Assembly (NCBI RefSeq): GCF_000013385.1
Contig: NC_007760.1
Coordinates: 4,376,001-4,440,000, forward strand
Direction of reading: 5' to 3'
Length of the DNA stretch: 64,000 nucleotides
From: Anaeromyxobacter dehalogenans 2CP-C
GTDB taxonomy: Bacteria; Myxococcota; Myxococcia; Myxococcales; Anaeromyxobacteraceae
This document shows, in pieces, positions 24,495 through 28,122 of this stretch. Every line of letters starts with the position of its first letter. The first letter of the stretch is position 1. The translations under genes were made by a program, and so were the position numbers. Below the pieces are notes generated by a model, which made no database searches, was not told the DNA's origin, and was given only the letters and a program-made list of their open reading frames with translations.

Positions 24495-25556
24495 TCAGCC
24501 GAGGCGCGCGCGCGCCTGCGCCAGCGCCGCGTGCACCTGCTCGAGCGCGCGCTTCGCGGAGGCGAGCTCGTCGCGCTCGGCGCGGAGCCGGTCCAGCTCC
24601 GCCGCGAGCTGATCGCGCTCGCGGGCCAGCTCGCCCACCGCGGTGCGCAGCCGGGCGCCGTCGGCGGCGCCGGCGCGGAGCTCCTCGGAGAGGCGCTCCA
24701 CCTCCTGCTCGCGCTCGGCGCGCACGCGCGCCTCCTCGTCGGCGCGGCGGGTGACGTCGTCGAGCAGGCGGGCGCGCTCCTCGTCGAGCGCGGAGAGCGC
24801 CTGCGCGCGCCGCACCGACTCGTCGCGCTCCTGCTCGAGCGCGTCCATCTCGCCGAGCAGGTCGGAGAGCACGCCGCGCTTGTCCTCCAGCTCCTTCTCG
24901 GCGACGGCGAGCCGCTCGGTCGCCCCGCGCGCCTCGCCGGCGGCGCGGGCCAGCTCCTGCCGCGCCTCGTCCAGGTCGGCGCGGAGCGCCTCCTCGCGCT
25001 CGCGCGCGCGCACCAGCTCGACCTCGAGGTCCTTCACCAGGCCGAGCACGCTCTCGGCGGCGCGGGCGGGATCCGCCGGCGCGGGCTCGAGCCGGGGCGC
25101 GGGCTTCGCCGCCTCGGCCACCCGGCGCTTGATCTTCTGCAGCCGCTCGCGGCGCTCCTGCACGTCGCCCTGCGCCCGGGCCGGCGCCTCGGCCGCGACC
25201 GGCGCGGCGGCGGGGGCGGCGGCGCGCGCGACCGGCGCGGGCGCGGCGACCGGGGCCGGCGCGGGCGGCTCGGCCGCGGTCACCTGCGCGGCGGCCTCGG
25301 CGGCGGCGTGGATCGCGACCCTGCCGCGCGCGGCGGAGACGGTGGCGGCGGCGCGGGGCTCGGGCGCGGCGGACGCCGCGATGGCCTCGGGCGCGGCCGG
25401 CTCGGCGGCGGCGGGGATGGCGGCCTCGGCGACGGCGACCGCCTCGGGCGCGGCGGCGACCTCGGCCTCCGGCTCGGGGGCGGGCGCGGCGGGGAGGCCG
25501 GCGGCGCGGAGCCGCGGCTTCAGCTTGGGAACGTTCGCGTCGAAGGCCTTGCGCAT
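24495..25556 (-). CDS. pomX: PomX-like cell-division positioning protein
   Basis: 353 residues from ATG 25556; a GTG three codons upstream overlaps the pomZ stop, but the ATG gives the conserved N-terminus. Domain layout matches M. xanthus PomX: a short basic N-terminal peptide MRKAFDANVPKLKPRLRAAG, an Ala/Pro/Glu-rich disordered stretch (about residues 20-140), and a long C-terminal coiled coil (about 170-350, full of heptads such as ELVRAREREEALRADLDEAR). In M. xanthus the N-terminal peptide, including Lys13 and Arg15, stimulates the ATPase of PomZ; residues 13 and 15 here are also Lys and Arg. Clustered with pomZ and pomY. It would form the scaffold placing the Z-ring. Confidence 0.82.
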   Translation of the reverse strand: MRKAFDANVPKLKPRLRAAGLPAAPAPEPEAEVAAAPEAVAVAEAAIPAAAEPAAPEAIAASAAPEPRAAATVSAARGRVAIHAAAEAAAQVTAAEPPAPAPVAAPAPVARAAAPAAAPVAAEAPARAQGDVQERRERLQKIKRRVAEAAKPAPRLEPAPADPARAAESVLGLVKDLEVELVRAREREEALRADLDEARQELARAAGEARGATERLAVAEKELEDKRGVLSDLLGEMDALEQERDESVRRAQALSALDEERARLLDDVTRRADEEARVRAEREQEVERLSEELRAGAADGARLRTAVGELARERDQLAAELDRLRAERDELASAKRALEQVHAALAQARARLG

Positions 25557-25561
25557 GTCGG

Positions 25562-26512
25562 TCACGCTCCCGCGACGCCGGCGGCCGCCGCGGCGGCCCG
25601 GACGCGCCCGAGGATCTCCTGCTGCACCGCCTCGAGGTCGGTCGCGCCCTTCGAGTCGGCGTCGAAGCCGAAGATGGGGCAGCCCTCGCTCGACGCCTGC
25701 GCGAACTTCGTGCACTGGCGGACCACCGTGTCGAGCAGGTAGTCGGCGTAGTGCTCGCGCAGCGCGCCCAGCGCCTCGCGGGCGATCTTGAACGTCTGGT
25801 TGAACGCGTTCACCACGATGAAGATGTTCTCGAGCTGGTGCGACAGGTCCTGCTCGAGCCCCTGGATCGTCTCGAACAGCAGCCGCAGGCCGTCGTAGGA
25901 CAGGAAGTCCGCCAGCACCGGGATGACGAGGTCGGTGGCGGCCATGAGCGCGTTCAGGTTCAGCAGCCCGAACGACGGCGGCGCGTCGAGCACGATGAAG
26001 TCGTAGCGCGCCACCGCGCCCTGCAGCGCGTTCCGCAGCCGGAACTCGCGCCCGGCGAGCGGCATGAGCGCGAGGTCGATGGTGCTCATGGCGAGGTTCG
26101 CCGGGACCAGCGACAGGTTCGGCATGCCGGTCGGGACGGTGACCTCTTCGATGGGCACCTTCCGGATCAGCACCTCGTGCAGCGTGCGCGTGAAGCTCGA
26201 GCCCTCCTGGCCCAGGCACTTGGTGGCGTGGCCCTGGCTGTCGAGGTCGATCATCAGCACGCGGTAGCCGCGCTCGGCCAGGCGGTACGCGTACGAGGTC
26301 GAGAGGCTGGTCTTGCCGGTGCCGCCCTTGAAGTTGAGGAACAGCTGGATGCGGTGCGGGAACGGCTCGGGCGTGCGCTTCAGCTTCTCTCGCAGGACCG
26401 GGAGGTCCGCCATGCCGAAGCCGTCCTTGCGGCCCAGCGCCGACACCACCTGCTTCTCGGTGGCGCCGACGATCTGGGCGAGGCGCTTCGAGGTGTACCG
26501 GACGTTCTCCAT
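25562..26512 (-). CDS. pomZ: PomZ-like ParA/MinD-family ATPase
   Basis: 316 residues from ATG 26512. A short DNA-binding-like N-terminus (YTSKRLAQIVGATEKQVVSALGRKD, residues 5-30) precedes a ParA core: deviant Walker A FKGGTGKTSLS with the signature Lys, Walker A' LMIDLDSQGHATKCLG, and Walker B FIVLDAPPSFGLLNLNAL. ParA ATPases form ATP-dependent nucleoid-bound dimers; in the Pom system dimers on DNA move the PomX/PomY cluster to midcell, where FtsZ is recruited. Lies 8 bp downstream of the HEAT-repeat gene and 5 bp upstream of pomX, one operon. A generic chromosome-partition ParA is less likely since no ParB is adjacent. Confidence 0.85.
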   Translation of the reverse strand: MENVRYTSKRLAQIVGATEKQVVSALGRKDGFGMADLPVLREKLKRTPEPFPHRIQLFLNFKGGTGKTSLSTSYAYRLAERGYRVLMIDLDSQGHATKCLGQEGSSFTRTLHEVLIRKVPIEEVTVPTGMPNLSLVPANLAMSTIDLALMPLAGREFRLRNALQGAVARYDFIVLDAPPSFGLLNLNALMAATDLVIPVLADFLSYDGLRLLFETIQGLEQDLSHQLENIFIVVNAFNQTFKIAREALGALREHYADYLLDTVVRQCTKFAQASSEGCPIFGFDADSKGATDLEAVQQEILGRVRAAAAAAGVAGA

Positions 26513-26520
26513 CGTGTCCT

Positions 26521-28122
26521 CTATGCCATGAACCAGCGCGCCCCGCGCTGGACGAGGGCGCCGCGGGCCGCCAGGGCGGCGAGCGCGGCGTCGACGCGCG
26601 GCTGCGGCGCGCCGAGCACGGCGGAAAGATCCGCGGCGGTGCAGCCGCGGAGCGCGATGCGGACCTCGCCCACGATCCCGGCGTCGAGGCCGGGATCGGC
26701 GGGGGCGGCCTCCCTGACGGCGACCGCCACCGCGGTGCGCGGCGAGCCCTGGACGGCCGCTCGCCGCGAGCTCGTCGAGGGGCGGGCGGGGGCCTGCGCG
26801 GGGCGAGCGGGGGCGAGCGCGTCCGCCCCGGCCATCACCGCGTCGCGCAGCGCCGCCCCGTCCATCGCGGCGAGCCGCTCGGCGATGCGGCGCGAGGCGG
26901 CCCGGCGCGCGGGCGCGGAGCCGTCCGACGAGATGCGCTCGCCGGCCACGCGCGACAGCGCCGACGCGGCCGCGCGGCGCACGCTCTCGTCCGGGTGCTC
27001 GAGCGCGCGCGCCAGCGCGCCCTGCGCGCGGGCGGTGGGCCGGCCGGACAGCGCCGCCGCGGCCGCGCGGGCCACGCCGCGGTCGGGATCGCCGAGCGCG
27101 ACCGACAGCGCCGCCTCGGCGCGCTCGCCCGGCGCGTAGCCGAGCAGGAGCGCCGCGCGGCGCCGCACGATGGGGCTCGGATCCGAGAGCGCGTCGGCGA
27201 GCCGCGGCTCCGCGTCGCCGGACGCCACCGCGTTCAGCGCCTCCAGCGCGGCCACCCGCACGGCCGGGCGCGCGTCCTCGAGCGCCCGCTCCGCCAGCGG
27301 CGCCGCGAACGGCTCCTTGAACCGGGCCAGCGCCCCGAGCAGCGCCGCCTTCACCTCGCCGTCCTCCTCGCGCCCGAGCGCGGCGGCGAGCAGCGGCGCG
27401 GCGGCCTTCGAGCCGAGCGCCTCCAGCGTGCGGACGGCGCGCTGGCGGGTGCGCGCATCCGGGGCGCGCAGGTCGTCCATGGACCGCTCGTAGAGCACGC
27501 GGTCGGCGCGCGTCGCGAGCAGCTCCTTCATCCGGTCGGTGTCGCGCCCGGAGAGCCCCACCCGCCCCTCGGCCTCGAACCGCCCGGCGAGCTGCGACAC
27601 CCCCTCGGCGGCCTCGCGCGCCTTCGGCACGTGCACGGCGCCGCCCGCGTCCACCCGGACGCCGCCGGCCTCGGCCGCGGCCTTCCACGCCCGCAGCGCC
27701 TCGATCTCGGCGCGCAGCTCCGCGATGAAGCCGGCCAGGTCGGCCCCGCCCTCCTCCGGCCCGGGCGCGCCGTCGGCGCCGGTCGCGCCGCCGATGCGGG
27801 CCCGCTCCACCAGCCCGGACAGGAGCCGCTCCCGCTCGCCCTCCAGCAGCCGCACCCGCTCGACGAGGTCGTCGGCCTGCGCCTGGGCGTCGGCCCGCGC
27901 GCCGCGCTCGGCCGCGGCAGCCTGCTCCAGCTCGACCTCGCGCCGGTGCGCCCTGGCCGCGTCGGCGCGCGCGCGCTCGGCGGTGGTGCGCGCCGCCGCG
28001 AGCTCGGATTCGAGCTGGGAGACGCGGCACTCGAAGAAGACGATCTTCTCGAGCGCGCTCCTGAGGAGCCCCTCCGGATCGATCGCCGCCGCCACTCCGT
28101 TGACCTTCGCCCCGTCCGCCAT
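26521..28122 (-). CDS. pomY: PomY-like coiled-coil/HEAT-repeat protein
   Basis: 533 residues from ATG 28122. Order of regions: coiled coil (about 20-115, VFFECRVSQLESELAAAR), linker, HEAT-like repeats (about 200-390: ARTRQRAVRTLEALGSKAAAPLLA and at least five similar helical pairs such as PAVRVAALEALNAVA and ESVRRAAASALSRVA), a disordered segment, and a small C-terminal winged-helix-like end. This coiled-coil-plus-HEAT plan and neighbourhood match M. xanthus PomY, which stimulates PomZ and bundles FtsZ. The disordered segment RPSTSSRRAAVQ is encoded by a degenerate dispersed repeat (26757-26789). First gene of the operon, with a good promoter upstream. Confidence 0.78.
   Translation of the reverse strand: MADGAKVNGVAAAIDPEGLLRSALEKIVFFECRVSQLESELAAARTTAERARADAARAHRREVELEQAAAAERGARADAQAQADDLVERVRLLEGERERLLSGLVERARIGGATGADGAPGPEEGGADLAGFIAELRAEIEALRAWKAAAEAGGVRVDAGGAVHVPKAREAAEGVSQLAGRFEAEGRVGLSGRDTDRMKELLATRADRVLYERSMDDLRAPDARTRQRAVRTLEALGSKAAAPLLAAALGREEDGEVKAALLGALARFKEPFAAPLAERALEDARPAVRVAALEALNAVASGDAEPRLADALSDPSPIVRRRAALLLGYAPGERAEAALSVALGDPDRGVARAAAAALSGRPTARAQGALARALEHPDESVRRAAASALSRVAGERISSDGSAPARRAASRRIAERLAAMDGAALRDAVMAGADALAPARPAQAPARPSTSSRRAAVQGSPRTAVAVAVREAAPADPGLDAGIVGEVRIALRGCTAADLSAVLGAPQPRVDAALAALAARGALVQRGARWFMA

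Follow-up and report, generated by a model that had tools for sequence, protein, structure and literature searches.

The window, a 64,000-nucleotide stretch of the genome of Anaeromyxobacter dehalogenans 2CP-C, contains three consecutive minus-strand genes that raise the question of whether they are the counterpart of the division-site positioning system of Myxococcus xanthus and, if so, how a PomY protein markedly shorter than that of M. xanthus might act on the ATPase PomZ. The genes, separated by gaps of 8 nt (pomY/pomZ) and 5 nt (pomZ/pomX), are co-directional and lie in the M. xanthus order (Table 1), which bears out the three-gene pomY/pomZ/pomX operon proposed in the initial annotation. 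The protein types it had assigned, namely a coiled-coil/HEAT protein, a ParA ATPase and an Ala/Pro-rich protein with a coiled coil, are upheld by Pfam matches, composition and models. PomY, which has an N-terminal helix of 97 residues, matches HEAT_2 (2.7e-33), PomZ matches AAA_31 (5.9e-44), a ParA-type ATPase, and PomX is 42% A and 16% P over residues 18-165, followed by a coiled coil. PomX begins MRKAFDANVPKLKPRLR, with Lys13 and Arg15 in place, as had been claimed.

Table 1. Features of the pom operon in the window and related operons in two Fibrobacterota metagenome-assembled genomes (MAGs)
Feature	Position	Strand	Remarks
pomY	28122..26521	-	533 aa
pomZ	26512..25562	-	316 aa; ParA/MinD-type P-loop ATPase, KGGTGKT Walker A
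pomX	25556..24495	-	353 aa; N-terminal activating peptide, Ala/Pro-rich region, C-terminal coiled coil
PomX NPEP, residues 1-22 = MRKAFDANVPKLKPRLRAAGLP	25491..25556	-	K13, R15
PomY gD domain (winged helix-turn-helix), residues 470-533	26524..26715	-	homology, model and PDB neighbours
PomY R462-TAVAVAVRE, residues 462-471	26710..26739	-	linker motif; candidate PomZ-contact segment replacing M. xanthus alpha5
complete pomY-pomZ-pomX	L104:4297-8222		Fibrobacterota MAG, GC about 45%
complete pomY-pomZ-pomX	L107:4295-8228		Fibrobacterota MAG, GC about 45%

As M. xanthus reference we used strain AM003 (L119; PomZ 319 aa, PomX 404 aa, PomY 697 aa), in which the numbering of every PomZ and PomX contact residue named in PMC13170346 matches the publication, and PomX has the N-terminus deduced from primers in PMC7993993. 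The window proteins are 62% identical to this reference over 315 aa (PomZ), 36% over 264 aa (PomX), and 35% over 425 aa plus 39% over the last 70 aa, corresponding to gD (PomY). Searching M. xanthus with the window PomZ returned PomZ (62%, E 8.7e-126; runner-up 1.7e-42), and M. xanthus PomZ in turn retrieved the window PomZ among the ParAs of the window genome (63%, 2.7e-119; runner-up 8.8e-37), the next-best ParAs being at most 38% identical in both genomes. The window genome is a single contig of 5,013,479 bases, in which PomX and PomY each occur once and PomZ has no close paralogue. Gene order and direction are the same in M. xanthus AM003, and the pomY-pomZ-pomX order is retained in almost all of the 60 Myxococcales loci examined. 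A PomZ at E <1e-60 is present in 132 of 195 Myxococcota genomes, three of them outside Myxococcales.

A different reading is that the trio is a ParA positioning operon for some other cargo, such as chemoreceptor arrays, carboxysome-like bodies or plasmid/chromosome segregation, which merely resembles pomXYZ. ParA-type ATPases are indeed common, several others (at most 38% identical to PomZ) are encoded in the window genome, and the Pfam/NCBIfam matches are only generic ParA-like ones. Nevertheless, this reading is refuted by the reciprocal best hits, the PomX peptide, the PomY architecture with its gD domain and the operon order, and we regard it as highly improbable. No ParB partner lies beside pomZ, the neighbours of which are PomX and PomY. 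MinC was not found in the window genome, which also counts in favour of a Pom identity; what counts against it is a missing alpha5 in PomY and two PomZ substitutions, E248 to Gly and F205 to Tyr. Since the PomZ proteins are reciprocal best hits, with no competing copies in the genome, and since gene order and direction, the NPEP peptide and a PomY-specific C-terminal winged-helix domain are shared, the Pom identity proposed in the initial annotation holds and passes the refutation test that the annotation itself had set. The trio is thus, very probably, the Anaeromyxobacter pomYZX operon, orthologous to the M. xanthus system and with a function assigned by homology. Orthology, operon order, peptide, domain architecture and conservation of the PomZ pockets are all supported by the sequences.

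The contact residues of PomZ are conserved. The NPEP reads MRKAFDANVPKLKPRLRAAGLP in the window versus MKKAFEQNVSRAKPRLRLGALT in M. xanthus; K13 and R15 are retained, these two positions being K or R in nearly all orthologs, whereas residues 10-12 are PKL instead of SRA. The NPEP pocket of PomZ is identical at 7 of 13 residues (F202, E219, A249, Y254, Q271, S274 and E275), with K268 retained; the remaining differences are conservative, save E248G. Relative to M. xanthus PomZ, the window protein has Tyr for F205, Asp for H206 and Gly for E248. The segment adjoining this pocket (Y206-D207, window 25890-25895) reads FLSYDGL in Anaeromyxobacteraceae and in a pair of Fibrobacterota proteins, and FLSFHGL in the other aligned PomZ. 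Lineages of the FLSYDGL type have P-K-L/F at PomX residues 10-12, compared with S-R-A/S/T in most of the Myxococcus lineage, and co-variation between the two sites is possible. In the alpha5 pocket, all eight residues are identical to M. xanthus.

PomY differs more. The initial annotation had described it as shortened at the C-terminus, with a reduced FtsZ-bundling tail. It is indeed shorter than its M. xanthus counterpart (533 aa vs 682-697 aa), but the difference lies in the disordered linker, of 41 instead of about 200 residues, and the terminal domain is intact. Our model comprises a coiled coil (16-112), HEAT repeats (192-393), helices (403-435), the disordered linker (~436-476) and a terminal winged-helix domain (477-532), which has a pLDDT of 89.5 when modelled alone. 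Its best PDB neighbours are the ORF112 Zalpha domain (4wcg) and an O-methyltransferase of B. thailandensis (3mcz), with MarR, MepR and MotA ranking lower; the published M. xanthus gD has these same neighbours. Nor is the tail mapped as the FtsZ-bundling part, because in M. xanthus residues 496-682 hold the PomZ-activating function (PMC13170346) and a CC-HEAT protein lacking the C-terminal region continues to colocalise with constrictions (PMC10307791); whether 496-682 might also aid FtsZ polymerisation was left open in PMC13170346. A reduced FtsZ-bundling tail is accordingly not supported, as gD is retained and it is PomZ activation, rather than FtsZ bundling, that PMC13170346 assigns to this region.

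How PomY activates PomZ is a question that PMC13170346 leaves open. A published structure prediction proposes the alpha5 helix (PVQAALVAM) as the PomZ-binding element of M. xanthus PomY. PMC13170346 states that alpha5, in contrast to the ParB peptide, lacks a positive charge, and proposes a non-canonical mechanism. Only nine of a larger set of published PomY orthologs bear alpha5, which is therefore not strictly defining for PomXYZ. Window PomY has no PVQAALVAM-like segment and instead displays SP-R462-TAVAVAVRE, of which R462-TAVAVAVRE may, judging from the sequence, be the counterpart of alpha5. We scanned the 34 residues before gD for Arg/Lys/Gln followed by Ala/Val repeats, a pattern written after viewing the sequences. 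Among Anaeromyxobacteraceae PomYs, 17 of 18 have this Arg-Ala-Val motif, against a mean of 0.6 after shuffling; among the other PomYs that lack alpha5 the count is 16 of 45, against a mean of 1.9 (P = 2e-4 in each case). These P values are optimistic because related sequences are included in the counts. The outcome had been the same with an earlier, simpler pattern. A de novo search for motifs in the complete linkers was discarded, as it mixed signals from the post-HEAT helix, the start of gD and the Arg motif.

One could also imagine a true pomXYZ in which PomY lost PomZ activation along with alpha5, leaving PomX as the sole activator. The missing alpha5 and the linker of 41 instead of about 200 residues speak for such a loss, as does the failure of M. 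xanthus PomY without residues 496-623 to stimulate PomZ (PMC13170346). We nevertheless consider it unlikely, since PomY has a conserved gD, which activation likewise needs, PomZ has an invariant alpha5 pocket, and a conserved Arg-containing motif occupies a fixed place ahead of gD.

Four PomYs of the Archangium/Hyalangium type carry PVRAALAVM, SARVALAAM or SVRTALAIM at the place of alpha5, and a profile of the Anaeromyxobacteraceae motif ranks these four sites 1, 1, 1 and 2 within their linkers. Myxococcus alpha5, which is of the Gln type, reaches ranks 8-64 in linkers and is not picked out by the same profile, so that the link between motif and alpha5 rests on the four Arg-type sequences. The idea that alpha5 and the Arg motif represent a single element, with Arg as the ancestral state, is tentative, on the doubtful side. 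Equally tentative is its mechanistic extension, in which the Arg-containing Ala/Val motif by gD would be the ancestral PomZ-activating segment, resembling the Arg-bearing ParB peptide, and M. xanthus alpha5 a derived form (Arg to Gln585). If this were true, the original mechanism would be better represented by Anaeromyxobacter PomY, whose R462 would face D222 of PomZ. Equating the motif with alpha5 is weakened by its sequence, which reads as more strand-like than helical.

It is quite possible, if still short of probable, that the motif is part of gD or makes a self-contact unrelated to PomZ binding. It lies 13-29 residues ahead of the gD core and alternates in a way suggestive of a beta strand, and lineages that have neither alpha5 nor the motif show the same invariant alpha5 pocket in PomZ. 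Indeed, this pocket is invariant across orthologs apart from A147 and one D221E, we looked for co-variation between it and the presence of alpha5 and found none, and its conservation does not point to the Arg-Ala-Val motif because it persists without either element. By contrast, the motif is predicted to be disordered in isolation (pLDDT <50 over 442-471), and the match to the Archangium/Hyalangium-type alpha5 sequences argues for a PomZ-related role. In natural PomY variants gD occurs without alpha5, which makes it possible to test directly how PomY activates PomZ.

In a scan of named genomes, complete pom operons turned up in two MAGs, L104, titled Chitinispirillaceae, and L107, titled Fibrobacter sp. 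(Table 1). Their PomZ proteins are 75% (L104) and 73% (L107) identical to that of the window, which is nearer than M. xanthus, and in their PomX, which starts MRKAFDANVPKLKPRLR, the first 17 residues are those of the window protein. Gene order and PomY architecture are shared with the window; what differs is a gene GC of 45-50%, the flanking genes, more diverged PomX and PomY, and the absence of the Arg-Ala-Val motif from PomY. These are the only 2 of 168 Fibrobacterota genomes with a PomZ at E <1e-60, and neither contig was found among Myxococcota genomes. One flanking gene per contig finds its best matches in Fibrobacterota: a flanking GlgA is 60-64% identical to its nearest Fibrobacterota matches vs at most 46% in Myxococcota, and a flanking Fe-S/hydrogenase-like protein has 44-68% matches in Fibrobacterota vs none in Myxococcota. 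GC3 of the pom genes equals that of the host, their dN/dS between L104 and L107 is 0.04 to 0.19 (dS being near saturation), showing that they are under purifying selection, and across the ~60 kb compared the operon is the only part that the two regions share. A binning error was rejected on the grounds of host-like flanks, host GC3, dN/dS and unrelated surroundings.

In phylogenies, the pair joins Anaeromyxobacteraceae with a support of 99 (PomZ tree) and 100/100 (concatenation); the PomZ tree places it inside this family (91 and 82), while the concatenation gives 67/56 for a position outside. The Fibrobacterota operons are therefore a probable case of inter-phylum horizontal transfer from an Anaeromyxobacteraceae-like donor. 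No PomZ relative was found on plasmids or viral contigs, and hence no vector for the transfer was identified. FtsZ is present in both genomes and MinC was found in neither. Intact transfer into Fibrobacterota, where MinC was likewise not found, is suggestive of pomYZX being an autonomous positioning module, able to operate with the FtsZ and nucleoid of a foreign host. Our literature search returned no paper naming PomX and Fibrobacter together, an absence that is not proof of being unreported.

The survey offered a glimpse of further variation. PomZ with an NPEP-bearing ORF directly downstream also occurs in L074 (a 4.35 Mb genome), L075 and L076, the latter two being genomes outside Myxococcales; in L074 and L076 the body of PomX has diverged beyond the reach of phmmer, and L074 PomY has long Ala/Glu repeats and then a gD-like end. 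A record titled Comamonas sp. KCTC 72670 (L139) holds a Myxococcus-type pom operon, with its PomZ beside M. xanthus in the tree, and is probably misnamed. In soil MAGs (L052-L056, L085, L137, L166, L168 and L169), PomY has no usual post-HEAT anchor, and in L053, L085, L166, L168 and L169 gD was undetected in the same PomY ORF while PomZ is conserved, reflecting either a frameshift or real domain loss.

By analogy with M. xanthus, the PomX coiled coil would polymerise into a scaffold that recruits PomY, and ATP-bound PomZ dimers would tether the resulting cluster to the nucleoid. PomZ ATP hydrolysis would be stimulated by PomX, via K13 and R15 of its N-terminal peptide, and by PomY, via linker and gD; the cluster would then travel to mid-nucleoid/midcell, marking the division site, where PomY would concentrate FtsZ. 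In the Anaeromyxobacter subtype, the contact between PomY and PomZ may involve R462-TAVAVAVRE and not a PVQAALVAM-type alpha5.

Taken together, the operon has in common with M. xanthus PomXYZ (PMC7993993, PMC10307791 and PMC13170346) 1) gene order and direction, 2) a ParA ATPase with conserved contact residues, 3) a PomX with NPEP K13/R15 and a C-terminal coiled coil, 4) a coiled coil-HEAT-gD PomY, and 5) opposite charges of PomX and PomY (pI 5.2 and 8.6 in the window; 4.9 and 9.4 in AM003). Unlike in M. xanthus, window PomY has a short linker with R462-TAVAVAVRE and no PVQAALVAM alpha5. With ParABS (ParA/Soj, ParB) and MinCDE it shares the ATPase superfamily, the nucleoid/membrane-relay logic and activators employing a short positively charged peptide, while neither PomX nor PomY is a homologue of ParB or MinE. 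The literature places the Pom system in myxobacteria/Cystobacterineae, and its presence in myxobacteria is ordinary and already published; the operon extends it to a genus barely covered in the published text, and what the analysis adds is the PomY variant and the relatives in another phylum.
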